Below, in pieces: positions 9,705 through 26,684 of a stretch of 42,387 nucleotides of DNA. The notes beneath the pieces are model-generated. The model had not been told where the DNA came from and did no database searches. It saw only the letters and a list, made by a program, of their open reading frames with translations. Where the stretch lies: assembly GCF_900609055.1 (NCBI RefSeq), contig NZ_UXAW01000045.1, positions 1 through 42,387 on the forward strand, written 5' to 3'. A program made the translations under genes and the position numbers. The stretch is from Pseudogemmobacter humi. Lineage in GTDB: Bacteria > Pseudomonadota > Alphaproteobacteria > Rhodobacterales > Rhodobacteraceae. Numbering within the stretch: the stretch's first letter is position 1; every line of letters starts with the position of its first letter.

Positions 9705-9711
9705 AAGAACA

Positions 9712-9727: not shown

Positions 9728-9800
9728 TTCCGCCAAATTCCCCTGCCTGCAAAACTTCCCCGCAGGAGAGGGTGCGAGTCCGTGCCCGAGGGAGGAAGCG

Positions 9801-11354: not shown

Positions 11355-11365
11355 GAGGTCGAACC

Positions 11366-11394
11366 GGGGGCGGGGCCGTCAACACCCCGCCCTC
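11366..11394 (+). terminator. Intercistronic GC hairpin after the oxygenase
   Basis: GGGCGGGG (11368-11375) pairs with CCCCGCCC (11385-11392), extendable by two more pairs including one wobble, and is followed by TCTCTTTA. It lies between the oxygenase and the FAD-synthetase-like gene. It may stop part of the transcription and so keep the downstream flavin genes at lower dose. Confidence 0.5.
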
Positions 11395-11434
11395 TCTTTA
11401 CCAGTGACGGATTCTGTTTCGGGGAGAGGACAGA

Positions 11435-12064
11435 ATGGGGTTAGATTTTTCAGGGCAAAAGGTGCGGATCGTCACCGACCGCCAGATCGCGCTGCCCGCC
11501 AGCATCATCGCCATCGGGGCGTTTGACGGGGTTCATCGCGGCCACCAGGATCTGATCCGAACGGCGGTCACGGCAGCCCATGATCAGGGCCTGCCGGCGG
11601 TGATCTGGACCTTTGACCCGCCGCCCAAGGTGCATTTCGGGCGCGCAACGCAGCTTTGCCCGCTGTCGGAAAAGCTGTCGCGCATCGCGGCTCTGGGGCC
11701 GGATTATATCGTCGTCGCACCCTTCACCGCGCTTTATGCCAGCCGCAGCCCCGAGGATTTCATCGCCGATCTGGCGCGGATCAACCCGGTGGGCATCCAT
11801 GTCGGCGCGGATTTCCGCTTTGGCGCACGGCAGGCCGGAGACGTGTCGCTGCTGGCACAACATTTCCCGCTGGTCGAGGCTCAGGCCACCTGTTGCTGCG
11901 CGGGCGAGACCATTTCATCCAGCCGTATCCGGGCGCTGCGTGCGGCCGGAGAGATCGACGCCGCCCATGCATTGCTGGGCGGCCCCACGCCCTGGCAGAT
12001 CATGGGCGCGGCCTGGGCAACAGCCGATATGCGCCATGCGGAGGAACACGATGTCTGGAATTGA
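11435..12064 (+). CDS. Stand-alone FAD synthetase-like (RibF N-domain) protein
   Basis: A 209-aa protein matching only the N-terminal FMN adenylyltransferase half of bifunctional RibF. The nucleotidyltransferase signature HxGH is at residues 34-37 (GAFDGVHRGHQ). WTFDPPPKVHF, HVGADFRFGARQAGD and the ISSSRIR block follow in the right order. The C-terminal riboflavin-kinase domain is absent. Inferred role: making FAD from FMN to feed the neighbouring FADH2-dependent monooxygenase. It has its own ribosome site (GGGGAGAGGA) and overlaps the reductase gene by 14 bases, so the two are probably co-translated. It is not the housekeeping ribF. Confidence 0.8.
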   Translation: MGLDFSGQKVRIVTDRQIALPASIIAIGAFDGVHRGHQDLIRTAVTAAHDQGLPAVIWTFDPPPKVHFGRATQLCPLSEKLSRIAALGPDYIVVAPFTALYASRSPEDFIADLARINPVGIHVGADFRFGARQAGDVSLLAQHFPLVEAQATCCCAGETISSSRIRALRAAGEIDAAHALLGGPTPWQIMGAAWATADMRHAEEHDVWN

Positions 12065-12530
12065 TCCGCGCGAGCTGCGCAATGCCTGCGGCGGCTTTGC
12101 CACCGGCGTGACCGTCATCACCACGCGCACCGAAACCGGCGATCATGGCATGACTGCCAATGCTTTCATGTCGGTCTCGCTCGATCCGCCGCTGGTGACG
12201 ATCTCGCTCGACCACAAAAGCAAGATGCGTGAGCGCATCCGGGCCTCGGGGCGGTATGCGGTCAGCATCCTTGCGCATGACATGGAGCATGTCGCCTGGC
12301 ATTTCGCGGGCCGCCACAATGAGGATCTCGCAACGATCCTCGAAGACCGCCATGATCTGCCGGTGGTGCCCGGTGCCGCCGTGATCTTCGTGACCGAGGT
12401 CGCGCAAGAGATCGAGGCGGGCGATCATACCCTGTTCATCGGCCGCGTCCTGCATCTGGAACGGCGCGATGACAGCGAACCGCTGTTGTTTTGCAGCGGG
12501 AAATTCACTCGTGTCGCACAGCCAGTCTGA
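12051..12530 (+). CDS. Flavin reductase component (HpaC/PheA2 type)
   Basis: A 159-aa flavin:NAD(P)H reductase of the split-barrel FMN-binding family, supplying FADH2 to the oxygenase. Blocks: LRNACGGFATGVTVITTRT, GMTANAFMSVSLDPPLVTISL, and the C-terminal DHTLFIGRV...PLLFCSGKF. The length is standard. I chose the ATG at 12051 because it follows GAGGAA and starts the conserved region; the longer open frame upstream lies inside the FAD-synthetase-like gene. The operon order is oxygenase, FAD synthetase-like, reductase. Confidence 0.9.
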   Translation: MSGIDPRELRNACGGFATGVTVITTRTETGDHGMTANAFMSVSLDPPLVTISLDHKSKMRERIRASGRYAVSILAHDMEHVAWHFAGRHNEDLATILEDRHDLPVVPGAAVIFVTEVAQEIEAGDHTLFIGRVLHLERRDDSEPLLFCSGKFTRVAQPV

Positions 12531-13108: not shown

Positions 13109-15802
13109 TCACTTCCGCCGCTTCGGGGCCGGGGTGCGGGGTGCGTCGCCAAGCGCCCGGGCGAGGATCTCCGCCTGTTCCTGCTCATGGCGCTCGATAT
13201 TCCCGCCCGCCGCCGCCGCCATCGGATCGCGTCCGACAAAGCGCAGCGCCCGCCCTGGGGCGATCTCATGCAGCCGATCACGCATCCAGCTCCAGGCACC
13301 CTGGTTCTGCGGCTCTTCCTGAACCCAGACGAGCTCCGCCTCGGGGTGGTTCGCGAGCAGATCGCGAAGCCCGGCCTCGGGGCAGGGGTAAAGCTGCTCG
13401 ATGCGGGCGATCGCGATATCCTCGCGACCGGCCTCGCGCCGCGCCGCCGCAATCGCATAAGAGAACTTGCCCGAACACAGGATCAGCCGCGCCGCGCCGC
13501 CGGTATCGGGCGCGATGACTGGCCGGAACGCGGTGCCGGCGCCGAAATCGGCCAGCGGCGAGGTGGCGGCCTTGTCGCGCAACAGGGATTTCGGCGCGAT
13601 CAGGAAAAGCGGTTTGCGCTCGGGCGCGAGGATCTGGCGCCGCAGGAGGTGGAAGAGGTTGGCGGGCGTCGAGGGATTGGCCAGCCGGATGTTCCCGTTG
13701 GCGCAGGATTGCAGGATACGCTCGATCCGGGCCGAGGAATGGTCCGGCCCCTGACCCTCCAGCCCATGCGGCAGCGCGATGACCAGCGCCGAGGGCAGCC
13801 GCCATTTCGCCTCGGCGGTGGTGATGAACTGATCGACCACGATCTGCGCGCCGTTGAGGAAATCGCCGAACTGGGCCTCCCAGATGATCAGGCGGTCAGG
13901 GTCGGCAAGGCTGGCGCCATATTCAAACGACAGGACGGCATATTCGCTCAGCGGCGAATTGATGGCCTCGAACCGGGCGCCCTGGCGGGCGGTCGCGTCC
14001 AGCGGAAAATGGCGGCGCGCGCTCGCGCGGTCATGCACCGCGAGATGGCGCTGCGTGAAGGTGCCGCGCACCGCATCCTGGCCGCTGAGCCGCACCGGCA
14101 CGCCCTCGGCCAGCAGGGTTGCGAAAGCGAGGGATTCCGCCGTGGCCATGTTGATGCCCTCACCGGAAATGAGGCTCTCCCGGCGCATCCGGTAGAAGGT
14201 CGCGACTTTCGGATCGGGGTCGAAATCGGCGGGGATGGTGGTCATATCGGCCGCAAGGCGGCGCAGATGCGCCTCGGGCAGCCCGGTTGGCTGCTCTGCC
14301 CCGCTTAGGATCGCCCCGCCTGGCATCACCGGGCCGGGGCCGAAGGTGATGGTCTGATCGCCCTCGTCATGGGCATTGCGGCCATCCTGCGAACGGAAGG
14401 CCTCGTCCAGACGGGTCTGGAAGGCCTCGCGCGCCGCACTGGCCCGTGTGAGCGCGGGCAGCGAGAGCGCGCCGACACGTTCGGCGAAATGCCGGGCCAG
14501 CGGCGGCAGGGTCTCAATCCGCTCCCACATGGCGGGCTGGGTGAAGCGCGGCTCGTCAAGCTCGTTATGGCCATAGCGACGATAGCAGACCATGTTGATC
14601 AGCGCGCCGCGCCCGCTGTGCCTGCGCCAGGCGATGGCGGTGCGCATGATGGCGGCGGCGGCGACCGGGTCTTCGCCGTTCACATGGAAGACCGGCAGGC
14701 CGTAAGCGCGGCCGATATCGGTCGGATGCAGGGTCGAACGCCCCTCTTCCGGCAGGGTGGTGAAACCGATCTGGTTGTTGACCACGATATGGATGGTGCC
14801 GCCGGTGCCATAGCCCGCCAGCCCGTCAAGCTGGAGCAGCTCGCTGACCAGCCCCTGGCCGGCAAAGGCGGCGTCCGTGTGCAGCATCAGCGCCAGCACG
14901 TCGCCGTCGCTGCGCCGTTGCCGCCGCGCCCGCGCCGCGCCCATCGCCACCGGGGCGACCACGGTCAGATGCGAGGGATGCGGCAGCACCCTGATATCCA
15001 TTTCCTGCCCGGCGATGCTCTGCCGGCTGCGCAGCCCGTTATGGTAGGGCACATCGCCGGTGAAATCGCTGTCGCCGGTGGTCACGTCGCGGCCCTTGAT
15101 CTCGGCGATCAGGGCGGGAAGCGACTTGCCGAAGACCGTGGCGAGCGAGGCCAGCCGCCCGCGATGCATGCCGCCGATCACCACCTCGCGGCAATCGGTG
15201 CGGGCGGCGGCATCCAATGCCTCGTTGAGCAGCACGAGCGAGCTTTCCGAGCCCTCGCTGCCGAAGCGCTTCTTGGTCGGCCATTTCACCTTCACCGTCC
15301 GCTCGAACGCATCCGCGAGCAGGATGGCGGTCAGCGCGCGCGTCAGCCCGTCCTCATCGGGTTCCGCGCCTATCCCGCGCTCCCATTCCTGCCAGAGCCA
15401 TTGCCGCGCGGTCTCATCATCGAGGTGGCCGGCCTGAAGGCTTGCCGAACCGCAATAGAAGGCCGAAAGCCGTTCGGCCGCGACCCTGGCGGGCAGGGCG
15501 AGGCTTTCGCCGGCCAGGGTCAGCCGCAACTCCTGGCCGGAGGTGAGGCGCAGGGCCTCATCAATGCGGGCGGATCGCGCCTCCGGGCGCAGCCCGAGCG
15601 GGTCGAGCCGGGCAATGGTATGGCCGCATTCGCGGTAGGCGAGGGCCAGCCATGTGCCGCCCAGTGCCGGATCGGCCGTCGCAACGCCGTCCATCGTCTC
15701 GAAATGGACGCGCCAGTCCGGGGGAACCGAGCCCGGATCGCGGCAATAGCGCCCGTAAAGATCAAGGAAATATCCGTTATCGCCTGAGAGGGCCAGGGTC
15801 AT
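13109..15802 (-). CDS. 2-oxoacid dehydrogenase E1 (SucA/DHTKD1-like)
   Basis: An 897-aa thiamine-diphosphate E1 of the 2-oxoglutarate dehydrogenase family. Family features in order: N-terminal E2-binding-like segment (GDNGYFLDLYGRYCRDPGSV), GGMHRGRLASLATVFGK, GDVPYHNGLRS, HPSHLTVVAPVAMG, LHTDAAFAGQG, IHIVVNNQIGFTT, and the C-terminal transketolase and E1 domains. It is shorter than usual bacterial SucA (about 930-990 aa). The stretch EEGRSTLHPTDIGR...HVNGEDP...YGHNELDEPRFTQP is nearer to DHTKD1 (2-oxoadipate dehydrogenase E1) than to E. coli SucA. No E2 or E3 genes are here, so it would borrow housekeeping partners. Because it is divergent from mct-mcd over a shared operator, a methyl-branched 2-oxoglutarate giving methylsuccinyl-CoA is my inferred substrate. 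Confidence 0.8.
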   Translation of the reverse strand: MTLALSGDNGYFLDLYGRYCRDPGSVPPDWRVHFETMDGVATADPALGGTWLALAYRECGHTIARLDPLGLRPEARSARIDEALRLTSGQELRLTLAGESLALPARVAAERLSAFYCGSASLQAGHLDDETARQWLWQEWERGIGAEPDEDGLTRALTAILLADAFERTVKVKWPTKKRFGSEGSESSLVLLNEALDAAARTDCREVVIGGMHRGRLASLATVFGKSLPALIAEIKGRDVTTGDSDFTGDVPYHNGLRSRQSIAGQEMDIRVLPHPSHLTVVAPVAMGAARARRQRRSDGDVLALMLHTDAAFAGQGLVSELLQLDGLAGYGTGGTIHIVVNNQIGFTTLPEEGRSTLHPTDIGRAYGLPVFHVNGEDPVAAAAIMRTAIAWRRHSGRGALINMVCYRRYGHNELDEPRFTQPAMWERIETLPPLARHFAERVGALSLPALTRASAAREAFQTRLDEAFRSQDGRNAHDEGDQTITFGPGPVMPGGAILSGAEQPTGLPEAHLRRLAADMTTIPADFDPDPKVATFYRMRRESLISGEGINMATAESLAFATLLAEGVPVRLSGQDAVRGTFTQRHLAVHDRASARRHFPLDATARQGARFEAINSPLSEYAVLSFEYGASLADPDRLIIWEAQFGDFLNGAQIVVDQFITTAEAKWRLPSALVIALPHGLEGQGPDHSSARIERILQSCANGNIRLANPSTPANLFHLLRRQILAPERKPLFLIAPKSLLRDKAATSPLADFGAGTAFRPVIAPDTGGAARLILCSGKFSYAIAAARREAGREDIAIARIEQLYPCPEAGLRDLLANHPEAELVWVQEEPQNQGAWSWMRDRLHEIAPGRALRFVGRDPMAAAAGGNIERHEQEQAEILARALGDAPRTPAPKRRK

Positions 15803-15901
15803 CTTTCGCGCAGCCTCTTGTCACTGTCCGGCCCCCGCCGCCGTGATCCTGTTCAGCGTTGCGGCAGGGTTCTGATGGGGAGATTACACATAGCGGATTG
15901 A

Positions 15902-15911
15902 TTGTCGACAA
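15902..15911. promoter_or_regulatory. Perfect palindromic operator TTGTCGACAA
   Basis: TTGTCGACAA (preceded by A) lies in the 149-bp gap between the E1 gene (minus) and mct (plus), 40 bases before the mct start. It is the most symmetric of six related sites in this region and has the TnGT...ACnA shape typical of GntR/FCD regulators. It would control both divergent units. Confidence 0.75.
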
Positions 15912-15951
15912 CATTGATGGCAATTATTGCGACGAAATAGCGAGACAGCCA

Positions 15952-17181
15952 ATGTATCCCTTGCTTGCCGGACTCCGCATATTCGAAGCAGCTTCCTTTG
16001 TCGCCGGGCCGTTCGCCACGCTGCAACTGGCCCAGCTTGGCGCCGAAGTGATTCGGATCGACCCGATCGGCGGCGGACCGGATTATCGCCGCTGGCCGCT
16101 TGCGCCCTCGGGGGACAGCTATTTCTGGGAAGGGCTGAACAAGGGCAAGAAATCCGTCGCGATCAACCTTTCCGCTCCCGAGGGGCGCGCCCTCGCGCAA
16201 GCGCTGATCGCCGCGCCGGATCGCGACGGATACGAGGCGGGGTGCCTTGTCACGAATTTTCCCGAAAAGGGCTTTCTCGCCCATGAGGCGCTGGCCCGGG
16301 GGCGCGGGGATCTGATCACGCTGCGGGTGACAGGCTGGCCCGATGGCGGTCAGGCGGTGGATTACACCATCAATCCGGCGGTCGGCCTGCCGATGATGAC
16401 CGGCCCCGCCGACCGGGCGGACGAGCCGGTCAACCATGTTCTGCCGGCCTGGGATCTGCTGACCGGGGCGGCGGTCTCGGTCGCGCTGATGGCCGCGCGA
16501 GAGCGCCGCCGCCTGACCGGGCAGGGCGGCGAGATCCGCATGCCGCTCAGCGATGTCGCGGCGACGACTCTGGCCAATCTGGGCATGCTGGCCGAGGTGC
16601 TCGGCAGCGGTCGGGATCGCGAAGCGGTCGGCAATACGCTGTTCGGCTCTTTCGGGCGCGATTTCGTCACCCGTGACGGCGTGCGGGTCATGCTCGTTGG
16701 GCTGACGACGAAGCAATGGCGCGCGATCCTCGCCGCGCTGGGTCTCCGGCAGGCGGTGGCGGCGGCCGAGGCAGAGCGCGGCCTTTCCTTCGATCCCGAT
16801 GCGGGGACGCGCTATCTGCACCGCGATCTGCTTGAACCGATGGTGGCGCGCGCGGTCGCGGCCCGGGACTGGGCTGCGCTGGAGCCGGAACTCGTGGCGC
16901 AGGGCGTCTGTTTCGGGCGCTACCGGACGCTGCTGGAGGCCAGCGGCGATCCGGTCTTCCGCGCGAGCCCGGCCTTTGCCGCCATCACCCAGCCGAGCGG
17001 CGAGACCTATCCCGCGCCGGGTTTCGCCGGCAGCCATGCCGATCTGCCGCGTCAGCCGCCCAGGCCCGCGCCGCATCTGGGCGCCGATACCGGCGCGGTT
17101 TTGCATGACTGCCTCGGCCTTCCCGAGCGCGAGATCGCGGCCCTTGCCGCCCGTGGCGTCGTGGCCGCCACCCTGCCCTGA
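15952..17181 (+). CDS. mct: 2-methylfumaryl-CoA isomerase (mesaconyl-CoA C1-C4 CoA transferase)
   Basis: A class III (CaiB/BaiF) CoA-transferase of 409 aa. It resembles Mct of the 3-hydroxypropionate bicycle, which moves CoA within mesaconate from C1 to C4. Shared blocks as I recall the Chloroflexus enzyme: GGGPDYRRWPL, GLNKGKKSVAINL, DYTINPAVGLPMMTGP and VNHVLPAWDLLTG, with the catalytic Asp at 168. It has the same length as that protein. I chose the ATG at 15952; an upstream in-frame start would run through the operator. It starts the mct-mcd-meh-lyase-hydroxyacid dehydrogenase operon. A plain intermolecular CoA-transferase for a C5 diacid is the alternative. Confidence 0.82.
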   Translation: MYPLLAGLRIFEAASFVAGPFATLQLAQLGAEVIRIDPIGGGPDYRRWPLAPSGDSYFWEGLNKGKKSVAINLSAPEGRALAQALIAAPDRDGYEAGCLVTNFPEKGFLAHEALARGRGDLITLRVTGWPDGGQAVDYTINPAVGLPMMTGPADRADEPVNHVLPAWDLLTGAAVSVALMAARERRRLTGQGGEIRMPLSDVAATTLANLGMLAEVLGSGRDREAVGNTLFGSFGRDFVTRDGVRVMLVGLTTKQWRAILAALGLRQAVAAAEAERGLSFDPDAGTRYLHRDLLEPMVARAVAARDWAALEPELVAQGVCFGRYRTLLEASGDPVFRASPAFAAITQPSGETYPAPGFAGSHADLPRQPPRPAPHLGADTGAVLHDCLGLPEREIAALAARGVVAATLP

Positions 17182-17207
17182 TCCGACAAGCGAAAGACCG
17201 AACCGAT

Positions 17208-18893
17208 ATGATCAAAGTCCCCGATCCCGTGCCTCTGCCGAGTGGCCCCGCGCTGAATGCTGTTGCCCGTGAGGCGGTCGCGGCGGCGAGGCACCGGCTT
17301 CAGCGCCTTCGCGCCGTGGTTGCGCAGCGCGTTACGCGCGACGGTCGGGTCGACCGCGCTCTGATGGATCATGACCAGCGCCTGGTGCATGGCCTCGCCT
17401 GGGCGGGCACATTGACCGCCTCGCTCGACGCCACCGCTGCCTGGCATGAAACGGCGCTGGCGGCTGGCCGGGCCGGCGCGGATGAGGACCGTCTCCTGCT
17501 GATCGGTTTTGCCGAATACCTTGGCCAGCTCGCGCATGGCATCGTCATGGGCCAGAACGAGATCGTCCGCGACGCCGAATACGGGCCGGAGGCGGGGGGC
17601 GCGGAATTTGCCGCCGATCCGGCGGTCGCCTGGTTCCTCGGCTGCGATCTGCGGGCGACGCGCGCCGCTCTCGCGGCCTCGCTGGCCGAGGGCGGGCAGG
17701 TCGCCGATACGCTGCATGACGAGCTTCTGGACCAGTTCCGCCGCGAGCTGAACCGCTTTGCCACCGACCGCATCCTGCCCGTGGCGCATCACCTGCATCT
17801 GCGCGACGAACTGGTTCCGCAGGCTCTGCTTGACGAGATGGCGGCGCTTGGCGTCTTCGGCCTGTGCATCGGCGAAGAGCATGGCGGCCTCGGCCTTGGC
17901 AAGCTCGCGATGGCGGTCGTCACCGAAGAACTGAGCCGGGCCTGGATCGCCGCAGGCTCGCTCGGCACCCGGGCCGAGATCGCGGGCGAGCTGATCTCGC
18001 ATGGCGGCACCGAGGCGCAGAAGGCGCGCTATCTGCCGGAAATCGCCGCGGGGCGCTGCCTGCCGGCAGCGGTGTTCACCGAGCCCGATACCGGCTCGGA
18101 TCTGGGCGCGGTCTCGACCCGAGCGATGCGCAGCGCAGAGGGAAGCTGGCAGATCCAGGGCGCCAAGACCTGGATCACCCATGCCGCGCGCAGCGATCTG
18201 ATGACGGTGCTGGTGCGCACCGATCCCGAAAGCCGCGACCATAACGGCCTGTCGATCCTGCTGGCGGAAAAGCCGCGCGGCAGCGAGGCCGATCCCTTCC
18301 CCGCCGAAGGGATGACCGGCAGCGAGATCGGCGTGCTCGGCTATCGTGGCATGCGCGAGTATGCGCTGTCCTTCGATGGTTTCACGGTGCCCGCAGAGGG
18401 GCTTCTCGGTGGTGTCGAAGCCCGGGGCTTCCGCCAGCTCATGCAGACCTTCGAGGGCGCCCGCATCCAGACCGCCGCGCGCGCCGTCGGTGTGGCGCGC
18501 CGCGCGCTTGAGCTTGCGCTTGCCTATGCGACCGACCGGCGCCAGTTCGGTCAGGCGCTGATCGGCTTTCCGAGGGTCTCGGACAAGATCGCGATCATGG
18601 CGACCGAGACGGTCATGGCGCGCGAGATGACCTATGCCGCCGCGCGGCAGAAGGATGGGGGCAGGCGCTGCGATATCGAGGCCGGCATGGCCAAGCTGAT
18701 CGCGGCGCGGGTGGCCTGGTCGGCGGCGGATGCCTCGCTTCAGATCCATGGCGGCAACGGCTATGCGCTGGAATTCGAAGCGAGCCGCATCCTCGTCGAT
18801 GCCCGCATCCTCAACATCTTCGAGGGCGCAGCCGAGATCCAGGCGCAGATCATCGCCCGCGGCCTTCTGAGCGGCGGAGGCAATGCGGTATGA
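17208..18893 (+). CDS. mcd: (2S)-methylsuccinyl-CoA dehydrogenase
   Basis: A 561-aa acyl-CoA dehydrogenase with the extra N-terminal helical region (about residues 1-160) that marks Mcd of the ethylmalonyl-CoA pathway. The ACAD core (about 165-560) carries Mcd-like stretches: LGVFGLCIGEEHGGLGL, GSLGTRAEIAGELI, FTEPDTGSDLG, KTWITHAARSDLMTVL, GYRGMREY, QTAARAVGVARRALE, LQIHGGNGYALE and NIFEGAAEIQAQ, the last with the candidate base Glu539. It oxidises methylsuccinyl-CoA to mesaconyl-CoA and passes electrons to ETF, which is encoded at 29.8 kb. It lies 26 bases after mct and overlaps meh by 4 bases. A second, anaplerotic copy elsewhere in the genome is possible. Confidence 0.9.
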   Translation: MIKVPDPVPLPSGPALNAVAREAVAAARHRLQRLRAVVAQRVTRDGRVDRALMDHDQRLVHGLAWAGTLTASLDATAAWHETALAAGRAGADEDRLLLIGFAEYLGQLAHGIVMGQNEIVRDAEYGPEAGGAEFAADPAVAWFLGCDLRATRAALAASLAEGGQVADTLHDELLDQFRRELNRFATDRILPVAHHLHLRDELVPQALLDEMAALGVFGLCIGEEHGGLGLGKLAMAVVTEELSRAWIAAGSLGTRAEIAGELISHGGTEAQKARYLPEIAAGRCLPAAVFTEPDTGSDLGAVSTRAMRSAEGSWQIQGAKTWITHAARSDLMTVLVRTDPESRDHNGLSILLAEKPRGSEADPFPAEGMTGSEIGVLGYRGMREYALSFDGFTVPAEGLLGGVEARGFRQLMQTFEGARIQTAARAVGVARRALELALAYATDRRQFGQALIGFPRVSDKIAIMATETVMAREMTYAAARQKDGGRRCDIEAGMAKLIAARVAWSAADASLQIHGGNGYALEFEASRILVDARILNIFEGAAEIQAQIIARGLLSGGGNAV

Positions 18894-19768
18894 ACGGACG
18901 GCCCGAAATGGAGACGGTCACGGATCTGGTGACGCCGAGGCTGATCGCCGGTCTGCGCGCGGTTCTGGATCAGGAAGGCGACGATCCCGCACGGCTGCCG
19001 CAATGCGGCCATTGGGCGCTTTGCCCGCCCCCGGTCACGGTCGCCGCCACCGGCGCCGATGGCCATCTGCGCCCGGGTGGCTTTCTGCCCGATACCGGGC
19101 TTCCGCGCCGCATGTGGGCCTCGGGCGAGGTGGAGTTCCGTCATCCGATCCGCGCCGGAATGACGGTGACACGCCATTCGGTGGTCAGCGGGATCACCGA
19201 AAAGACCGGGAAAAGCGGGCGCATGGTCTTTGTCACCGTTCTGCACCGGCTGACGGCGGCAGAGCGGCTTTTGATCAGCGAGCGGCAGACAATCGTTTAC
19301 CGTGCCGCCCCGAACCCTGCGCCGCCCCGGGACATGCCCGCAGCCGGGGAAACGGCTGTCGCCGGGGCGGAAGGCGCCGCACCGCGCGCGGCCGCTCTTT
19401 CCGCCTTGAGGGCGGATCAGGAAGCGGATTTCATCCGGACGGTGCTGCCGGATGAAATCATGCTGTTTCGCTATTCCGCCCTGACCTGGAACAGCCACCG
19501 CATCCACTATGACCGGCCCTATGCCACGGAAGGGGAATCCTATCCCGGCCTCGTGGTGCAGGGTCCGCTGACCGCGAGCCTGCTCGCGGATCTGGTAGCG
19601 CGGCAGATCGGCCCGGACCGGCTGCGCAGCTTTTCCTTCCGGGGGCTCGCTCCGGCGTTTTGCGGCCGCGCATTGCGGCTGTCCGGTGTGGTGCGGGGCG
19701 AGACGGTCGCCTTGCAGGCCAGCGGGCCCGACGGCGGGCTGGTGATGACGGCAGAGGGGAAAATATGA
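18890..19768 (+). CDS. meh: Mesaconyl-C4-CoA hydratase-like (MaoC/FAS1-like dehydratase)
   Basis: A 292-aa double hot-dog protein of the FAS1-like/MaoC dehydratase group that includes mesaconyl-C4-CoA hydratase (Meh) and itaconyl-CoA hydratase. The N-terminal half has HWALCPPP and GGFLPDTGLPRRMWASG. The C-terminal hot-dog carries the hydratase motif FRYSALTWNSHRIHYDRPYA (Asn201, His203, His206, Asp208). Expected reaction: 3-methylfumaryl-CoA (mesaconyl-C4-CoA) plus water to (S)-citramalyl-CoA. ATGA overlaps with mcd upstream and the lyase downstream show tight translational coupling. It is not the 343-aa Mch type that makes beta-methylmalyl-CoA. Itaconyl-CoA as substrate is possible but fits Mct and Mcd less well. 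Confidence 0.8.
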   Translation: MNGRPEMETVTDLVTPRLIAGLRAVLDQEGDDPARLPQCGHWALCPPPVTVAATGADGHLRPGGFLPDTGLPRRMWASGEVEFRHPIRAGMTVTRHSVVSGITEKTGKSGRMVFVTVLHRLTAAERLLISERQTIVYRAAPNPAPPRDMPAAGETAVAGAEGAAPRAAALSALRADQEADFIRTVLPDEIMLFRYSALTWNSHRIHYDRPYATEGESYPGLVVQGPLTASLLADLVARQIGPDRLRSFSFRGLAPAFCGRALRLSGVVRGETVALQASGPDGGLVMTAEGKI

Positions 19769-20592
19769 TCCTGAGCAATCTGCGCACCCTGCTGTTCTTG
19801 CCGGCGGATCGGCCCGACAGGCTGGAAAAGGCGGCGGCCAGTCCGGCGGGAGGGGTTATCCTCGATCTCGAAGATGGCGTGGCACCGGCTGCGAAAGACG
19901 CCGCCCGGGCGGGGCTGGCCGGGGCGGTTTCGCTCCTGCGGGCACTTGGTCGGCCTGTGGTGGTGCGGGTCAACGCCGGGGCAGGGCTCTCGCGCGACAT
20001 TGCCGCGATGGCGCCATGCTGGCCCGATGCGCTCATGCTGCCGAAGACAGAGCGCCCGGAGGATCTGGCAACACTGGCCGGTTTCCTCGCCGCCGCTCCG
20101 ACTGCGCTGCGGCGCATCTTCCTGCTGGAAAGCCCTGCCGGTGTGCTGAATGCCGCGACACTTGCCGCCCTGGCGCAGGAAGGCGATGCGCTTGCTTTCG
20201 GCTCCGAGGATTACGCCGCCGCGCTGTCGGTTCCGCCGGGGCGCGAGGAACTGGATTTTCCCGCACGCCAGGTGGCCCTGGCGGCGCGCGCGCATGGACT
20301 TGCCGCCTTCGGGGTGATCGGCTCGATCGCCGGGATCGCCGACCAGGATCTGTTCGCCCGCTCCTGCCTTGCCGCGCGCGGCGCGGGATTCACCGGCGCG
20401 CTGACCATTCACCCGGCCCAGGTCGCCACCGCAAATGCCGCTTTCGGTCCGGCCGGGCCCGAGATCGAATGGGCCATCGCGGTGATCGAGGATGCGGCCC
20501 TTGGCGGCGAGGGCGCCATCCGGGGCCGCGATGGCAGGATGATCGACCGGCCGGTGCTGGAGCGCGCCCGCGCGATCCTTGCGCGGCGCTGA
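19765..20592 (+). CDS. CitE/HpcH-family CoA-ester lyase, probable citramalyl-CoA lyase
   Basis: A 275-aa TIM-barrel lyase of the CitE/CLYBL/Mcl superfamily. Conserved features: LRTLLFLPADRPDRLEKA, the Mg and CoA-site motif ILDLEDGVAPAAKDAAR, VRVNAG, LPKTE, the metal-binding Glu in LLESPAGVLNA, GSEDYAA, and the closing ALTIHPAQV. In this operon it should cleave (S)-citramalyl-CoA to pyruvate and acetyl-CoA. The ATG overlaps the meh stop by 4 bases. Related enzymes cut malyl-CoA or beta-methylmalyl-CoA, so the exact substrate is inferred from the mct-mcd-meh neighbours. Confidence 0.82.
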   Translation: MILSNLRTLLFLPADRPDRLEKAAASPAGGVILDLEDGVAPAAKDAARAGLAGAVSLLRALGRPVVVRVNAGAGLSRDIAAMAPCWPDALMLPKTERPEDLATLAGFLAAAPTALRRIFLLESPAGVLNAATLAALAQEGDALAFGSEDYAAALSVPPGREELDFPARQVALAARAHGLAAFGVIGSIAGIADQDLFARSCLAARGAGFTGALTIHPAQVATANAAFGPAGPEIEWAIAVIEDAALGGEGAIRGRDGRMIDRPVLERARAILARR

Positions 20593-20626: not shown

Positions 20627-21784
20627 ATGGGAAAATTCGGACACTACCTCGCGCTTGATGATTTCGAGACGGCAGCGAAGCGCCATTTGCCGCGCTGCAT
20701 CTACGGCTTCATCTCGGGCGGGGCGGAAACCTGTCTGAGCCGCGACGGCAATCGCAGCGCCTTTGCCGATTACCGCTTTGTGCCGAGGGTGCTGAACGAC
20801 ACCTTCGCGCGCGATCAGGCGGTCAGCCTGTTCGGCCGCGAAATCGCCTCGCCGATTGGCATCTGCCCGATGGGGGCGATCAATGTCGCAGCGCGCGGCG
20901 GTGATCTGGCGCTCGCCCTGGCGGCGGAAAAGGCGCGCGTCCCCTTCGTTCTGAGCGCGGCCTCGCTCACGCCGATGGAGCGCATCATCGAGGCCGCGCC
21001 GTCAAGCTGGTTTCAGGCCTATCTGCCGGGCGAGGAGGAGCGCATCCTGCCGCTGATGGACCGGGCGGCGCGCGCGGGTTTCGGCACGCTGGTCCTTACG
21101 GTCGATCTGTCGGTGCCAGGCAATCGCGAGAACAATATCCGCAACGGCTGGAACATGCCGCTGCGCCCCGGCCCGCGGCTGATGCTCGACGGGATCACTC
21201 ATCCGCGCTGGCTGCTGTCGACCGCCTTCGCCACGCTTGCCTTCGACGGCATGCCGCATTTCGAGAACATGGATGCCCGGCGCGGCCCGCCGATCCTGTC
21301 GCGCAACCTCTCGCGCGATATCGGCCGGCGCGAGGCGCTGAGCTGGGAGCATGTCCGCCTGATGCGCGACCGCTGGCAGGGCAGGCTCGTGCTGAAGGGG
21401 ATCCTCGCGCCCGAAGACGCCGTGACGGCGCAGAAGCTGGGCGTCGACGGGATCATCGTTTCAAACCATGGCGGGCGCCAGCTCGACGGGGCGCTGGAAA
21501 GCCTGCATGCGCTGCCCGCCATTGCGGCAGCGGCGCCGGGGCTGACGCTCCTGCTTGATGGCGGCGTGCGGCGCGGATCGGATGTGCTCAAGGCCCTGGC
21601 GCTTGGCGCAAGCGCCGTGCTGATCGGGCGGCCGATGCTTTACGCCGTTGCGGTGGCAGGGAGGCCCGGCGTCACCCATGCGCTCGGGCTGATCATGCAG
21701 GAAATCGACCGCAATCTCTCGCTTCTGGGCGTCACCGCGCCCGGCCAGATCACCCCGGCACTGTTGCGCCGCGCCGGGGTCTGA
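20627..21784 (+). CDS. FMN-dependent L-2-hydroxyacid dehydrogenase (LldD/glycolate oxidase family)
   Basis: A 385-aa flavoprotein oxidising an (S)-2-hydroxyacid to the 2-oxoacid. The active-site set is present: Tyr132 (QAYLP), Lys257 (LVLKGI), His281 and Arg284 in SNHGGRQLDGA, then the FMN phosphate loop LLDGGVRRGSDVLKAL and GRPMLYA. No membrane segment is obvious. It is the last gene of the mct operon. I chose the ATG at 20627, after a G-rich ribosome site. Likely role: forming the 2-oxoacid fed to the divergent E1 enzyme (inference). Lactate or mandelate as substrate cannot be excluded. Confidence 0.88.
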   Translation: MGKFGHYLALDDFETAAKRHLPRCIYGFISGGAETCLSRDGNRSAFADYRFVPRVLNDTFARDQAVSLFGREIASPIGICPMGAINVAARGGDLALALAAEKARVPFVLSAASLTPMERIIEAAPSSWFQAYLPGEEERILPLMDRAARAGFGTLVLTVDLSVPGNRENNIRNGWNMPLRPGPRLMLDGITHPRWLLSTAFATLAFDGMPHFENMDARRGPPILSRNLSRDIGRREALSWEHVRLMRDRWQGRLVLKGILAPEDAVTAQKLGVDGIIVSNHGGRQLDGALESLHALPAIAAAAPGLTLLLDGGVRRGSDVLKALALGASAVLIGRPMLYAVAVAGRPGVTHALGLIMQEIDRNLSLLGVTAPGQITPALLRRAGV

Positions 21785-21817: not shown

Positions 21818-22254
21818 ATATCCGGGGGGCGGCGCCAGATCGGGCCGCGGGCGCGCACCCGTTCCAGCATGCCGTTCGCCTCGTATTCCGGGGTGGCATG
21901 CGGGTCATAGGGCACGCTCTCCTGGCCGGGATAGCCCAGCTTTTCGCGGATTTCGTCGGCGAGGAAATAGGCGCCGGTCGCGGCGAGGCCGATGGCGTCG
22001 AAGGCGGCCCCGTCCGAGGCGAGCAGCCGTTCCGCCGCCTCACGGCCCGCCGAACCCGGGACGAGGCGCAGACCCCGGATCACATCCTCGCGCAGATCCG
22101 GCCGTGCCGCGAGGGCGCGGTCGAGCCAGAGACCCGAGATGTCGATGCTTTCGGCGCCGGGCAGGCGCCCCCAGGCCGGCAGCAGTTCGGCGGCGATGGC
22201 GCGGAAGGTTTCACGATCCGCCGGGGTCAGGGTATTGCCGGTGGTGTTCATCAT
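21805..22254 (-). CDS. Gluconate 2-dehydrogenase subunit 3-family small subunit (copy 1)
   Basis: A 149-aa protein of the gluconate 2-dehydrogenase subunit 3 / GMC gamma-subunit family. It has an N-terminal LTPADRETFRAIAAELLPAWG block and the conserved end TGAYFLADEIREKLGYPGQESVPYDP. In classical membrane-bound dehydrogenases this subunit carries a Tat signal that exports the catalytic subunit. Here no twin-arginine signal or membrane segment is visible, so the complex is probably cytoplasmic. It overlaps the upstream GMC gene by 4 bases (ATGA), as does the second pair at 33.6-35.6 kb. It probably stabilises the large subunit. Confidence 0.8.
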   Translation of the reverse strand: MMNTTGNTLTPADRETFRAIAAELLPAWGRLPGAESIDISGLWLDRALAARPDLREDVIRGLRLVPGSAGREAAERLLASDGAAFDAIGLAATGAYFLADEIREKLGYPGQESVPYDPHATPEYEANGMLERVRARGPIWRRPPDMPGA

Positions 22255-23924
22255 GCGGCCCTCACATTGCGGCGCTCATTGATCAGGTGGCGGGTCTGGC
22301 GCAGCGCGACCGACATGATCGTCGCGGTCGGGTTTACGCCCCCCGAGGTCGGGAAGGTGCTGCCATCGAAGATATAGAGATTGGGCACGTCATGGGTCTG
22401 GCCCCACTGGTTCACGACCGAGGTTTTCGGATCCTCGCCCATCTTGCAGGTGCCCAGGAGATGCCAGCCGGTGTCGCGCATCTGATGCACCACCGCCGTC
22501 TCGATGGCGCCCGAGGCCTCTGCCGCCTCCAGCAGGCGGTCGACATGGAATTTCAGCATATTGGTCGAATTCTCCGAGACCTTGTAGGCCAGTTTCGGCG
22601 CCGGGATGCCGTCGGAATCGGTCAGGTTCGGATCAAGGGTGATGCGGTTGCTTTCCTCGGGCAGATCCTCGCCGATGATGCCCCAGAGGAAGCCGCGTCC
22701 AAACCGGCGCTGCACCGTCTGTTGCAGGGCCGCGCCCCAGTTCCGGCCCAGGACATCGCCGCTGTCGGTGAAGGCGCGGCTCCCGAAGGCGCTGGTCGCG
22801 CCGAGCGGGCCGCCCGTCGGCATCGCGCCCCATTTGGCGCCCCGGATAAAGCCGCGTTTCTCGTCCGTCTCGTAGAATTCAAAAGATTCCACCGAATGGC
22901 CGAGCGGGCCGCGCCAGGACATCAGATCCTCGTCGACGATCCCCATCACCGCCGAGAACGGGTGCATCATCAGCCGCGTGCCGACGAGGCCGCTGGAATT
23001 TGCCAGCCCGTCGCGGAACCGCGCCGATTGAGACAGTTGCAACAGGCGCGGCGTGCCGATCCCGTTGGCGCAGAGGATGACGATACCGGCCTTCTGCCGC
23101 CGCTCGGTGCCGCCCGCATCGAAATAGACCACGCCCGAGGCGAGGCCGTTCCCGTCCACCTCGATCTCGCGCACCCGGCAGCCGGTCAAGAGCCGCGCGC
23201 CTGCCTTCTGCGCGGCGGGCCAGAGCGTGATATCGGCGGTGGATTTCGCGCCTTCCGGGCAACCGCTGAGGCAGGTGCCGCGCCGCTGGCAGGCATTCAG
23301 CCCGTTATGCGCCACCGAGGGGATCGCATTGGTTCCCGGCCACCAGTGCCAGCCCAGTTTGTCCAGCCCCCGCGCCGCCGCCATGCCGAATTCGCCGATC
23401 GGCAGGGCGGGGGTCGGAAAGGCCTTCTGCGCCGGATAGGCCGGGTTTCCGGGCACCCCCGAGACGCCGACGATCTCCTCGATCTCTTCCAGATAAGGCA
23501 GCAGTTCGAAATAGTCGAAAGGCCAGTCATCCGCGACCCCATCCAGCGAGCGCACCCGGAAATCCGAGGGCAGGAAGGGCGTCCAGTGCGCGCCGTAAAG
23601 CGTGGTCGAGCCGCCGACGCCCGCGAACATCAGCGGGTTGATGTCGGAATCGTCGGTGTTGATCGGGTAATCCTCGGCCCGGTCGCGCATATTCGGGTTG
23701 GGGTGCCATTGCTTCTGCGCCAGAAGCTCCCATTCCGGCTTGCGCCCGGGAAAGGCGTTGCGGTCCGGCCAGCCGCCCTGTTCAAGGCATAGGACCGAGA
23801 ATCCGGCCTCGGCCAGAAACCGCGCCGCGACGGCGCCCGAAGGGCCGGCGCCTACGATCACCACGTCGACCGCGCCTCTCTCCGGGCGTGTTCGGCTGGC
23901 GGATGCTTGCTGTGCTGTTGTCAT
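22251..23924 (-). CDS. GMC-family FAD oxidoreductase (copy 1)
   Basis: A 557-aa glucose-methanol-choline-type flavoprotein, closest in form to the large subunits of gluconate and FAD-glucose dehydrogenases. The dinucleotide fold is VVIVGAGPSGAVAARFLAEAG. The central cluster CQRRGTCLSGCP (C-x5-C-x3-C) resembles the Fe-S site of FAD-glucose dehydrogenase. The C-terminal region has TGWHLLGTCKMG and GVNPTATIMSVALRQTRHL. I chose the ATG at 23924, behind GGGGAGGGGG. No signal peptide is present and no cytochrome partner is adjacent. It oxidises an alcohol or polyol group of the unknown substrate. The gene starts beside the operator at 24044. Confidence 0.85.
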   Translation of the reverse strand: MTTAQQASASRTRPERGAVDVVIVGAGPSGAVAARFLAEAGFSVLCLEQGGWPDRNAFPGRKPEWELLAQKQWHPNPNMRDRAEDYPINTDDSDINPLMFAGVGGSTTLYGAHWTPFLPSDFRVRSLDGVADDWPFDYFELLPYLEEIEEIVGVSGVPGNPAYPAQKAFPTPALPIGEFGMAAARGLDKLGWHWWPGTNAIPSVAHNGLNACQRRGTCLSGCPEGAKSTADITLWPAAQKAGARLLTGCRVREIEVDGNGLASGVVYFDAGGTERRQKAGIVILCANGIGTPRLLQLSQSARFRDGLANSSGLVGTRLMMHPFSAVMGIVDEDLMSWRGPLGHSVESFEFYETDEKRGFIRGAKWGAMPTGGPLGATSAFGSRAFTDSGDVLGRNWGAALQQTVQRRFGRGFLWGIIGEDLPEESNRITLDPNLTDSDGIPAPKLAYKVSENSTNMLKFHVDRLLEAAEASGAIETAVVHQMRDTGWHLLGTCKMGEDPKTSVVNQWGQTHDVPNLYIFDGSTFPTSGGVNPTATIMSVALRQTRHLINERRNVRAA

Positions 23925-24043
23925 ATCCCCCTCCCCGGGCGCGACTTCCGATGCCTCGCCCTGTCTCCCCTGCGCGGGGCGACATCTGCGGTATTTTTCC
24001 CGCAATGGTCCGGCACGCTATGTTGACTGTTGTGTTGAAATGA

Positions 24044-24053
24044 TTGTCAACAA
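24044..24053. promoter_or_regulatory. Operator-like TTGTCAACAA
   Basis: ATTGTCAACAAT lies in the 168-bp gap between GMC copy 1 (minus) and the D-2-hydroxyacid dehydrogenase (plus). It differs from the palindrome at 15902 by one base. On the minus strand it overlaps TTGACA (24046-24051), a good -35 element for the GMC gene, which suits repression. Confidence 0.65.
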
Positions 24054-24092
24054 TAATGTGGAACAAATCGACAAGGAACGGACCAGGACGAG

Positions 24093-25508
24093 ATGGATGC
24101 TGAACGGGTAAGGGCACGGCTGCTGGAAGCGGTCGGGCCGAAGGGGCTGGTGAACGATCCGGCGCAGCTGCGGGCGATGTCGACGCCCTGGCGCGATTCC
24201 TGGCCCTCGGAGCCGCTGGCTGTGGTGATGCCGGGGGCGACCGCCGAGGTCAGCGCCGTGGCGCGGATCTGCCATGAGGAGGGCTGGCCGCTGGTGCCGC
24301 AAGGCGGCAATACCGGCGTCACCGGGGCAGGGCTGAGCCGCCCCGGCGGCCGGGACGTGCTGATCTCGCTGAAGCGGATGAACCGGCTGCGCAGCATGGA
24401 TGCCGGGGATGACATCATGGTGGCCGAGGCGGGCTGCATCCTTGCCGATCTCCAGGCGGCGGCGGCCGCGCAAGAGCGGTTTTTCCCGATGTCGCTCGGC
24501 TCTCAGGGAAGCTGCACCATCGGCGGCAATATCGCGACCAATGCCGGGGGCATCAATGCGCTGCGCTACGGCACCATGCGCCAGCTGGTCAGCGGGCTTG
24601 AGGTCGTGCTGCCCGACGGGCGGGTCTGGGACGGGCTTCGGAAGCTGCGCAAAGACAATACCGGTTATGATCTGAAGCATCTCTTCATCGGCTCGGAAGG
24701 CACGCTCGGCATCATCACCGCCGCCGCTCTGTTCCTGTCGCCGCGCCCGCGCGCGCGCTGCACGGCGCTGGTGGGGCTGGAAAGCCCGGCCATGGCCCTG
24801 CGCTGGCTGCGCCGGCTCCGGCACGCGATGGGCGAGCATCTGACCGCCTGCGAGCTGATCGAACGGATCTGCATCGAGGTCGCGATGCGCCATCAGCCGG
24901 GGCTCCGCGATCCGCTGGCGCAGCCTTGCCCCTGGTATGCGCTGGTCGAGGCCGGTTCCTGCGATGAGGCGGCGGCGCTTGACGAGCGCATCACCGCCTG
25001 TTTCGCCGCGGCTCTGGAGGCGGGCGAGGTGCTGGACGGGGTGATCGCGACCTCGCTCGCGCAATCGGATGCGCTCTGGGCGATGCGCGAGATGCTGGCC
25101 GAGGGGCATCGCCATGAGGGGATATCGTTCAAGCACGATGTCTCGGTGCCGGTCTCGCAGGTGCCGGTTTTCATCGACCAGGCGGGTGAGGCCCTGGCGG
25201 CGCGCTTTCCGGGGATCAGGCAATTCGCCTTCGGCCATATCGGCGACGGCAATATCCACTACAACAGCCTTCAGGCGGCGGGGGAGCCGGCAGCGGACTG
25301 GGCCCCGCGCCTGCCCGAGGTCAACCGCATCGTGCATGACATCGTGCATCGGCTTGGCGGTTCGATCAGTGCCGAACATGGGATCGGCCAGCTCCGGCGG
25401 CAGGAATTGCCGCGCTACAAACCGGCCGTCGAGCTTGAGATGCAGCAGCGCATCAAGGCGGCGCTCGACCCGCTTGGGCAGATGAATCCGGGCAAGCTGT
25501 TCCTCTGA
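24093..25508 (+). CDS. FAD-linked D-2-hydroxyacid dehydrogenase (GlcD/D2HGDH family)
   Basis: A 471-aa vanillyl-alcohol-oxidase-type flavoprotein. FAD-binding blocks are PLVPQGGNTGVTGAGLS and GSQGSCTIGGNIATNAGG. The metal-binding substrate site is GHIGDGNIHYN with SAEHGIGQLRR near the C-terminus. The family includes D-2-hydroxyglutarate, D-lactate and glycolate dehydrogenases, many of which give electrons to ETF or a quinone. With the L-specific FMN enzyme at 20627, both stereoisomers of a 2-hydroxyacid could be converted to one 2-oxoacid. A hairpin separates it from the convergent transporter gene. Confidence 0.88.
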   Translation: MDAERVRARLLEAVGPKGLVNDPAQLRAMSTPWRDSWPSEPLAVVMPGATAEVSAVARICHEEGWPLVPQGGNTGVTGAGLSRPGGRDVLISLKRMNRLRSMDAGDDIMVAEAGCILADLQAAAAAQERFFPMSLGSQGSCTIGGNIATNAGGINALRYGTMRQLVSGLEVVLPDGRVWDGLRKLRKDNTGYDLKHLFIGSEGTLGIITAAALFLSPRPRARCTALVGLESPAMALRWLRRLRHAMGEHLTACELIERICIEVAMRHQPGLRDPLAQPCPWYALVEAGSCDEAAALDERITACFAAALEAGEVLDGVIATSLAQSDALWAMREMLAEGHRHEGISFKHDVSVPVSQVPVFIDQAGEALAARFPGIRQFAFGHIGDGNIHYNSLQAAGEPAADWAPRLPEVNRIVHDIVHRLGGSISAEHGIGQLRRQELPRYKPAVELEMQQRIKAALDPLGQMNPGKLFL

Positions 25509-25994: not shown

Positions 25995-26684
25995 TCAGGC
26001 GTGGCGCAGGCTCGCCGCGATGCCGGTAAAACTTTCGCCGGCTCTGAGGCGGGCAGAGAAGGCATTGTCCCGCGCATCCAGATCTTCGGCGGTTGCAAGA
26101 ACCCGTTCGGCGGCGCCGGCGGGAATGGCGATGACGCCGGTGTCGTCAATCACCACCAGGTCGCCCGGAGTGACGCAGATGCCGCCGCAGATCACCGGCT
26201 CGTCAAGGCTGACCACCCGCACCCGCCCCTTGCCCGAGCGGGGCGTGAGGCAGCGGCTTGCCAGGGTAAAGCCCAAGCGGCGAATCTCTTCGATATCGCG
26301 CGCGCCGCCATCGACCACCGCCCCGGCGGCGCCGCGCAGCGACATGGTTTCGGCCGCAAGCCCGCCCAGGGTCGAGATCTCGACCCCGCCCATATCGGCG
26401 ACGAGGATCTCGTCCGGGCCGACGCTGTCAAAGCCGCGCCCCACCGCGAAATCCTCAAACCGGAAGCTCCCGTAGGGGGCGGCCTGTTCCTGCATGGTGC
26501 GGGCGAAACCGGCGATACGGCCCTGGCCGGAGTGCCGCGCGAGGCCGGTCATGATCCCGGGCAGACCGAGTTGGTCCAGCGCATCCGCGATCGTCGCGCT
26601 CGCCAGGGCGCGGGCGCGCGCCAGCAGTTCGGCATCGCCGCCACTCCGACCGGAGCCGGCGGTCTTTTGGACATGATTCGTCAT
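25995..26684 (-). CDS. RraA-family aldolase-like protein (copy 1)
   Basis: A 229-aa protein of the RraA / 4-hydroxy-4-methyl-2-oxoglutarate (HMG/CHA) aldolase family, which splits such acids to pyruvate plus a second 2-oxoacid using a divalent metal. The catalytic pair Arg129-Asp130 sits in VVDGGARDIEEIRR, the phosphate/pyruvate-loop-like DMGGVEISTLGGLAAE is intact, and GDLVVIDDTGVIAIP is conserved. I chose the ATG at 26684, which overlaps the stop of the upstream paralogue (ATGA). RraA proteins without aldolase activity regulate RNase E, but the conserved Arg-Asp and the catabolic setting favour an enzyme. Confidence 0.8.
   Translation of the reverse strand: MTNHVQKTAGSGRSGGDAELLARARALASATIADALDQLGLPGIMTGLARHSGQGRIAGFARTMQEQAAPYGSFRFEDFAVGRGFDSVGPDEILVADMGGVEISTLGGLAAETMSLRGAAGAVVDGGARDIEEIRRLGFTLASRCLTPRSGKGRVRVVSLDEPVICGGICVTPGDLVVIDDTGVIAIPAGAAERVLATAEDLDARDNAFSARLRAGESFTGIAASLRHA

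Follow-up and report, generated by a model that had tools for sequence, protein, structure and literature searches.

The stretch analysed here (the window) is a 42,387-nucleotide contig of Pseudogemmobacter humi (NZ_UXAW01000045.1; C94 in our numbering), an alphaproteobacterium of the Rhodobacteraceae whose genome (G000) comprises 4.47 Mb in 143 contigs with a completeness of 100. Four genes in this window, mct, mcd, meh and a gene for a CitE-like lyase, were originally predicted to form an operon that converts (2S)-methylsuccinyl-coenzyme A (CoA) to pyruvate and acetyl-CoA. All four open reading frames (ORFs) are present and consecutive as described, and the predicted ATGA overlaps can be read directly in the sequence, where mcd and meh, and again meh and the lyase gene, share these four bases. 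The gap between mct and mcd is 26 bases. As a description of the whole block, the term four-gene operon is too narrow. A gene for a flavin mononucleotide (FMN)-dependent 2-hydroxyacid dehydrogenase begins 34 bases after the lyase stop codon, extending the operon beyond position 20592, and sucA2, which codes for a paralogue of the E1 component of 2-oxoglutarate dehydrogenase (E1o), is transcribed divergently 149 bp upstream of mct. In other genomes, too, the block is accompanied by an E1o paralogue and 2-hydroxyacid dehydrogenases, which provide a likely source of methylsuccinyl-C1-CoA.

The mct gene (15952–17181, plus strand) was assigned from NCBIfam and PDB matches, residue comparison and a tree. 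Its best NCBIfam match by far is TIGR04253, 2-methylfumaryl-CoA isomerase, at 373 bits, which does not reach the curated cut-off of 725, and it matches PDB 8apq with an E value of 7.7e-103. The protein is 46% identical (185/402) to the Mct of Chloroflexus aurantiacus. At 11 positions taken from a published analysis (PMC9813914), six residues are kept, namely the catalytic Asp165, the mesaconate-binding Arg47 and Tyr136, Asp135, Asn100 and Phe101. The changes are Leu43 to Pro, Ile74 to Leu, Arg75 to Ser, Arg104 to Lys, and Glu133, a backbone contact, to Ala. The same source gives Leu or Ile at position 43 as conserved in the intramolecular Mct enzymes that it names, a pattern from which the window protein departs because it carries Pro. 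This Pro43 is shared by four of six SucA2-linked and 11 of 13 Mcd-linked Mct proteins. Arg47, Tyr136 and Asp165 are kept in all six SucA2-linked proteins, and Tyr136 is replaced by Phe in one of the 13 Mcd-linked ones.

The mcd gene (17208–18893, plus strand) codes for a homologue of (2S)-methylsuccinyl-C1-CoA dehydrogenase. The match of this 561-residue protein to PDB 6es9 (E value 3.5e-173) spans residues 8–554, and the N-terminal extension that precedes the acyl-CoA dehydrogenase core is present. The protein is 54% identical (293/544 aligned positions) to the enzyme of Paracoccus denitrificans (PdMCD). Among 15 positions drawn from the PdMCD structure paper (PMC5798300), 13 are the same, including Arg252, Ala285, Phe287, Arg376, Glu380, Arg421 and Glu535, and the two substitutions are Ser283 to Pro and Lys379 to Arg. 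By this comparison, the published methylsuccinyl-C1-CoA pocket is retained.

The meh gene (18890–19768, plus strand) codes for a MaoC-type protein proposed to be a mesaconyl-C4-CoA hydratase. Its MaoC and FAS1_DH Pfam matches are weak, though over the cut-offs, and an NCBIfam scan gave no family. The nearest solved structures are PDB 8huc and 8khg (E values about 3e-48), which are named itaconyl-CoA hydratase and place the protein among homologues of the Pseudomonas aeruginosa-type enzyme, a C4 hydratase. According to a recent study, that enzyme type also hydrates mesaconyl-C4-CoA (PMC12290011). The lyase gene (19765–20592, plus strand), proposed to code for an (S)-citramalyl-CoA lyase, matches Pfam HpcH_HpaI; its best NCBIfam match is RipC at 122 bits, short of the cut-off of 375, and its PDB matches (3qll, 1sgj, 5ugr and 8khl) all lie between E values of 1e-27 and 1e-21. 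The lyase is not separable by sequence from other CitE-like lyases, and its substrate assignment rests on context. The original identifications are partly supported, with the reservations that Mct lacks Leu or Ile at position 43 and that the lyase could belong to any of several CitE-like types.

Phylogeny places Mct and Mcd in sister clades, outside the clades of the characterised enzymes. In a tree of 33 Mcd proteins, a canonical group of 12 (PdMCD, the host's other Mcd and the Mcd of ten genus-mates) is split off at 100/100. The window Mcd lies outside that group, in a 15-member set (98/94) that includes six SucA2-linked Mcd proteins. PDB 8ciw, a second (2S)-methylsuccinyl-CoA dehydrogenase that we take to be a Pseudomonas enzyme, groups with Mct-adjacent Mcd proteins of Paraburkholderia and Variovorax. 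In a quick tree of 48 Mct proteins, the window Mct joins 21 others (support 98) on the opposite side from C. aurantiacus Mct. The Azospirillum Mct, which comes from the same type of cluster, falls on the C. aurantiacus side and has Ile43. One locus (L061) was excluded from the Mct set at 25% identity, and duplicates or cut copies (L044, L085, L097 and L083) were left out of the trees.

The sucA2 gene (13109–15802, minus strand) matches NF006914 at 899 bits, exceeding the equivalog cut-off of 764. Its product shares 42% identity with the host's other SucA (contig C101). In an unrooted tree of 14 SucA proteins, eight proteins from loci of this kind are parted from six canonical SucA at 100/100; the two Azospirillum proteins form their own deep line, and the housekeeping SucA of the host groups with that of Ruegeria TM1040. 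The six closer SucA2 proteins keep the residues corresponding to Escherichia coli F227, H260, R263, H298 and H729, which include active-site histidines conserved in E1o; H313 is not retained. We take H260 and H298 to bind the far carboxylate of the substrate in E1o. Ten columns that are invariant in the six canonical SucA have another fixed letter in the six closer SucA2, including M258G, K296P and E728D, which flank conserved histidines. This residue pattern fits a dicarboxylic 2-oxo acid with an altered middle part. No gene for the E2 component of 2-oxoglutarate dehydrogenase (E2o; sucB) adjoins sucA2. The genome's single E2o match over the cut-off adjoins the housekeeping sucA on C101, and the other E2 match, on C98, is weaker (248 bits) and does not reach the cut-off; SucA2 would therefore need to borrow E2o. 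We propose that SucA2 is the E1 component of a methyl-2-oxoglutarate dehydrogenase that shares E2o and the E3 component with the housekeeping complex.

Elsewhere in the genome are a canonical Mcd (contig C129), 56% identical to the window Mcd, and a Ccr over its family cut-off (contig C69). The window set (contig C94) is linked to neither, although such linkage would be expected of ethylmalonyl-CoA pathway genes. Given this canonical Mcd and the other SucA, each of the window genes mcd and sucA2 is a paralogue, and the set is additional to the host's canonical enzymes.

The divergent promoter region between sucA2 and mct (15803–15951) carries the palindrome TTGTCGACAA at 15902–15911. With at most one mismatch, this 10-base sequence occurs six times in the window, a count that includes the seed site, versus 0.54 expected from shuffled sequences. 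Five of the six sites are intergenic, where the gene set leaves 10% of the sequence non-coding, and they precede sucA2/mct, GMC1/glcD, rraA2, an SDR gene and an ABC transporter. A 12-base form with one mismatch has 11 sites in the 4.47-Mb genome, five of them on the window contig, and a backward-read control gave none. The corresponding binomial value of 3e-8 is overstated, because the 12-base form was derived from the window's own sites. No site (10-base form with one mismatch, 12-base form with two) was found in the window before position 15901, leaving the catechol genes (348–6857) and the hpaB-type genes (9801–12530) without one. The palindrome appears to tie the operon to a GntR-type regulator gene, the ABC transporter, electron transfer flavoprotein (ETF) genes and oxidoreductase genes, and not to the catechol genes.

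In this putative regulon, the FMN-dependent 2-hydroxyacid dehydrogenase (LldD-like; 20627–21784, plus strand; PRK11197 at 269 bits, below the cut-off of 376) is a proposed maker of the 2-oxo acid. In another genome of the genus (L096), a 38% identical family member is a neighbour of SucA2, Meh and the lyase. Next come GMC oxidoreductase 1 (22251–24005, minus strand, by Pfam) and a GlcD-like FAD-dependent D-2-hydroxyacid dehydrogenase (24093–25508, plus strand; TIGR00387 at 240 bits, below cut-off), with the operator-like palindrome ATTGTCAACAAT between them at 24043–24054. The GlcD-like protein is 56% identical to the FAD oxidoreductase of the Azospirillum SucA2-Mcd-Mct clusters. Two RraA-like proteins are encoded on the minus strand, at 25995–26684 (start at 26684 or at a GTG at 26849) and 26681–27334, with a palindrome upstream of the second at 27400–27411. 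The former is about 60% identical to the SucA2-adjacent RraA of a further genome, G559. RraA-like genes accompany SucA2 in three genomes (L084:1197–1829, L096:12062–12709 and the window, 25995–27334).

A GntR/FCD regulator gene (27461–28183, minus strand; Pfam FCD and GntR) probably codes for the regulator of the set; the window also has two LysR genes and one IclR gene, the latter recognised by eye. Beyond a palindrome at 28460–28471, the plus strand carries an SDR dehydrogenase gene (28491–29282; start ATG 28491 or 28536), genes for the ETF beta and alpha subunits (29818–31562), which are the proposed electron acceptor of Mcd, a gene for a membrane Fe-S/CCG protein that might link ETF to quinone (31528–33507), GMC oxidoreductase 2 (33546–35201) and a lactonase-like PF04909 amidohydrolase (35698–36555; 178 bits with the 4-sulfomuconolactone hydrolase model, below the cut-off of 500). 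ETF genes are also found in four other clusters with SucA2 or Mct (L099, L100, L103 and L108), and their presence would suit Mcd and the FAD enzyme. At 36557–37315 is a gene for a protein resembling arylmalonate decarboxylase, EutA and maleate isomerase, with matches under the family cut-offs. A last palindrome (37455–37466) precedes the ABC transporter genes for a binding protein, permease and ATPase (37500–41265, plus strand; Peripla_BP_4, BPD_transp_2 and ABC_tran), of which the binding-protein gene occupies 37500–38624.

The predicted block recurs in other genomes, in part. Six other strains have genes for SucA2, Mct and Mcd clustered within about 21 kb: Mesorhizobium ORS 3428 (L043/L044), a Hyphomicrobiales metagenome-assembled genome (L049), the same-genus genome (L096), Azospirillum brasilense (L099), A. 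ramasamyi (L108) and Pseudorhizobium flavum (L100). Meh and the lyase accompany them in four of the six (L044, L096, L100 and L108). The gene order differs from strain to strain. In the window's genus it is Mcd-Mct followed by RraA-SucA2-IclR-FMN dehydrogenase-Meh-lyase. A. ramasamyi has EtfA-EtfB-lyase-Meh-GlcD-aldehyde dehydrogenase-ApbA-TRAP transporter and a divergent SucA2-Mcd-LysR-SDR-Mct, and A. brasilense has the same set without Meh and the lyase within the 32 kb viewed. P. flavum has MmgE/PrpD-Mcd and SucA2-IclR, then 14.5 kb further Mct, an ABC transporter, Meh, the lyase, EtfB, EtfA and an ETF-quinone oxidoreductase. The MmgE/PrpD gene that adjoins Mcd and SucA2 there (L100:8998–12094) is of the same family as methylsuccinate isomerase. 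IclR genes adjoin sucA2 in L044, L096 and L100. Palindrome-like sequences of the ATTCAT(3)ATGAAT type, unlike the window's palindrome, are found between sucA2 and mct in L043 (3170–3355) and L049 (6100–6320).

Among plasmid records, Mct matched 24 and SucA2 matched 21. The nine matched by both are eight from Azospirillum and one from P. flavum, and two of the former and the latter were examined in detail. A scan of genome contigs by Mct alone gave 21 loci, or 20 after the exclusion at 25% identity, with a full Mcd (at least 500 bits) in 11 of the 20. Mct reaches at least 270 bits in 48 of 49 loci viewed widely, with L071 below that value. The 29 of these outside the family sample include 18 with Mcd and eight with SucA2, numbers that are not frequencies because L096, L099, L100 and L108 were chosen by their Mcd or SucA2 match. 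The set is patchy, in that a second Mcd is found in two of 13 genomes of the genus, and SucA2 at an E value of 1e-230 or better, a limit that may miss more distant proteins of the module, in two of 385 genomes of the class and one of 394 of the family (the host counted in each). Mct matches at 1e-60 occur in 67 of the 394 family genomes, the host included. Among 20 such family loci viewed widely (L062–L081), none has Mcd or SucA2 nearby and 17 have Meh; this stand-alone Meh-Mct pair represents another use of Mct.

The gene identities, pocket residues, synteny and common palindrome can all be read from sequence. On this basis we think it probable that the window carries a GntR-type catabolic regulon that takes a methyl-2-oxoglutarate through methylsuccinyl-C1-CoA to pyruvate and acetyl-CoA. 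We infer all substrates, above all that of the SucA2 step, as well as the direction of flow. The ABC transporter would import a small methyl-branched compound, and the operon with sucA2 would be the lower part of its degradation. The SDR, GMC and lactonase-like proteins, as upper enzymes, would yield a 2-hydroxy acid, which the FMN or FAD 2-hydroxyacid dehydrogenase would oxidise to a methyl-2-oxoglutarate, in the simplest case 3-methyl-2-oxoglutarate. This oxo acid would be decarboxylated to (2S)-methylsuccinyl-C1-CoA by SucA2 together with E2o and E3 of the housekeeping complex, and Mcd, with ETF as acceptor, would form mesaconyl-C1-CoA. Mct would then shift CoA from C1 to C4, Meh would add water to mesaconyl-C4-CoA to give citramalyl-CoA, and the lyase would release acetyl-CoA and pyruvate. 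The chemistry suggests why Mct would be needed. The 3-methyl isomer would give a C1 ester, as the Mcd pocket suggests, so that Mct is required before a C4 hydratase, whereas the 4-methyl isomer would give a C4 ester and require no Mct. As to the source compound, the lactonase-like protein is 60% identical to a partner encoded next to SucA2 in L049, where genes for sugar-type ABC transport and for Gfo/Idh, SDR, xylose-isomerase-like and enolase-superfamily proteins are found in the surroundings; this partner and its neighbours hint at a sugar-like or lactone source.

The part of the original prediction that took the four genes from methylsuccinyl-C1-CoA to pyruvate and acetyl-CoA is thereby supported as a reading. 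Its placement in a catabolic regulon, rather than in CO2 fixation or acetate assimilation, gains support from the separate canonical Mcd and Ccr and from the shared operator-like palindrome.

Several observations weigh against this interpretation. Canonical His313 is lost in SucA2 and Ser302 is variable. Mct carries Pro43 and agrees at just six of the 11 listed contact positions, and family searches support the Meh and lyase assignments weakly. Most of the Mct-Mcd loci found are without SucA2; when Mct alone was used for the scan, three of 20 loci had it, from two strains, namely two contigs of Mesorhizobium ORS 3428 and the Hyphomicrobiales genome. In addition, G559 has a SucA2 (61% identical) with an adjoining RraA gene and no Mct match at 1e-20, and its single full-length Mcd match (53%) is unlinked and far from SucA2. 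This speaks against a strict link between SucA2 and Mct. G559 may use ethylmalonyl-CoA enzymes, or its SucA2 may act otherwise.

An unlikely alternative is that SucA2 acts on another 2-oxo acid, such as 2-oxoglutarate or 2-oxoadipate, and is merely adjacent to four genes fed by beta-oxidation or a CoA transferase. G559 and the prevalence of Mct and Mcd loci without SucA2, some with a thiolase and one (L103) with a CoA-transferase-type gene, agree with this idea. However, the linkage of SucA2 with Mct and Mcd is repeated in differing gene orders, and SucA2 lacks a dedicated E2 and departs from canonical SucA at the ten columns fixed there, all of which speaks against mere adjacency. Two other kinds of cluster were noted. 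In sphingomonad loci (L042, L046, L047, L051 and L059, one from Croceicoccus estronivorus) the order is Mct-Meh-acyl-CoA dehydrogenase-PcaF-like thiolase-CaiB-Mcd, and there methylsuccinyl-CoA looks like a product of beta-oxidation, perhaps of terpenoid or steroid parts. On a plasmid of Paraburkholderia D15 (L103:2578–12532), Meh, the lyase, ETF genes, an 8ciw-type Mcd, Mct and an acetyl-CoA hydrolase/transferase are likely to form a route for free methylsuccinate.

More doubtful is a methylaromatic source, in which the contig's catechol genes would turn 4-methylcatechol into 4-methyl-3-oxoadipyl-CoA, a thiolase would release acetyl-CoA and methylsuccinyl-C1-CoA, and the four genes would drain the latter. 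The catA, catB, pcaD, pcaIJ and pcaF genes at 348–6857 are present, the sphingomonad Mct loci carry a thiolase about 45% identical to pcaF, and the mml pathway yields methylsuccinyl-CoA (PMC6449761). Yet no palindrome lies before 15901, and the cat/pca genes form an ordinary catechol set, adjoined by a LysR gene. A search of the genome for MmlI gave no match, but the control genomes gave none either, so absence of MmlI is not demonstrated. This source would also leave sucA2 unexplained.

Slighter still is the chance that the window Mct works as an intermolecular CoA transferase and activates imported free mesaconate or methylsuccinate. Pro43 in place of Leu or Ile, the change of Arg75 to Ser and the position outside the C. 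aurantiacus Mct branch are in keeping with such a role, but all six SucA2-linked proteins retain Asp165 as well as Arg47 and Tyr136, the binders of the far carboxylate, and the Azospirillum set has a C. aurantiacus-side Mct with Ile43, as if both kinds of Mct were interchangeable. A role in a partial 3-hydroxypropionate cycle or another assimilation cycle, whose other bicycle enzymes were not searched for, is unlikely because the set is extra beside the canonical Mcd and Ccr and shares its operator with transport and oxidation genes.

Catechol ortho-cleavage genes are found at 348–6857 (pcaD, pcaF, pcaJ, pcaI, catA and catB, with a LysR gene). Pfam recognised no muconolactone isomerase in the two small ORFs between pcaI and catA, and no whole-genome search for this enzyme was made. 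At 8911–12530, three consecutive genes code for an HpaB-2-like monooxygenase, a RibF-like FAD synthetase domain that stands alone, and an HpaC-like flavin reductase; an IclR-like gene, recognised by eye, diverges from them. An FAD-making enzyme within a flavin monooxygenase operon is unusual.

The proposed catabolic route resembles several known systems without matching any of them. It shares with the ethylmalonyl-CoA pathway a homologous Mcd with the same pocket residues and the same expected C1 ester. However, the window Mcd lies outside the canonical clade, a canonical Mcd and Ccr are present elsewhere in the host, and the C1 hydratase and the cleavage of methylmalyl-CoA are replaced by Mct, a C4 hydratase and a lyase. 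The second cycle of the 3-hydroxypropionate bicycle likewise proceeds from mesaconyl-C1-CoA via the C4 ester and citramalyl-CoA to pyruvate and acetyl-CoA, whereas the window set would be entered by Mcd from methylsuccinyl-CoA and has its Mct in a sister clade. Pseudomonads, as described in PMC12290011, use methylsuccinate by means of a CoA transferase, an (RS)-C4-specific dehydrogenase, methylsuccinate isomerase, a hydratase and a lyase. The hydratase and lyase of that itaconate/methylsuccinate cluster are related to those of the window, which instead has a C1-type Mcd with Mct; itaconate CoA transferase, an MmgE/PrpD isomerase and a C4-type dehydrogenase were absent from the window proteins scanned. 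Like our proposal, the mml pathway for methylaromatics leads to methylsuccinyl-CoA in which CoA is attached beside the methyl-bearing carbon (PMC6449761, citing Marin 2010). Unlike the window set, it requires methylmuconolactone isomerases, which were not found here in the MmlI search, whose control genomes gave no match either, and the window's catechol genes lack the operator-like palindrome. ThnP of anaerobic naphthalene degradation also performs an intramolecular CoA shift in catabolism and adjoins an acyl-CoA dehydrogenase, but it is a Family I transferase with a different substrate (PMC11659651). Finally, SucA/OdhA and SucA2 have the family, length, conserved histidines and N-terminal segment in common and differ in branch and in the remodelled columns near the histidines (M258G, K296P and the lost H313).

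The enzyme types, and intramolecular CoA transfer in catabolism, are known, and the bold part of our proposal is the E1o link. In the literature consulted, mostly outside subscription journals, we found no description of a catabolic Mcd with Mct or of a methyl-2-oxoglutarate dehydrogenase. Whether the window encodes an undescribed pathway, which joins an E1o-type enzyme using housekeeping E2o and E3 to a C1-type Mcd and Mct in a portable alphaproteobacterial module, plasmid-borne in some strains, seems to us about evenly balanced. According to PMC12290011, the C1-type methylsuccinyl-CoA dehydrogenase was known from no pathway other than the ethylmalonyl-CoA pathway, and it was unclear until recently where environmental methylsuccinate comes from. 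If our proposal is true, the C1-type Mcd would gain a second, catabolic role, an intramolecular CoA transferase would have a role other than in CO2 fixation, and a methyl-branched 2-oxo acid that occurs in nature would be an overlooked carbon source.

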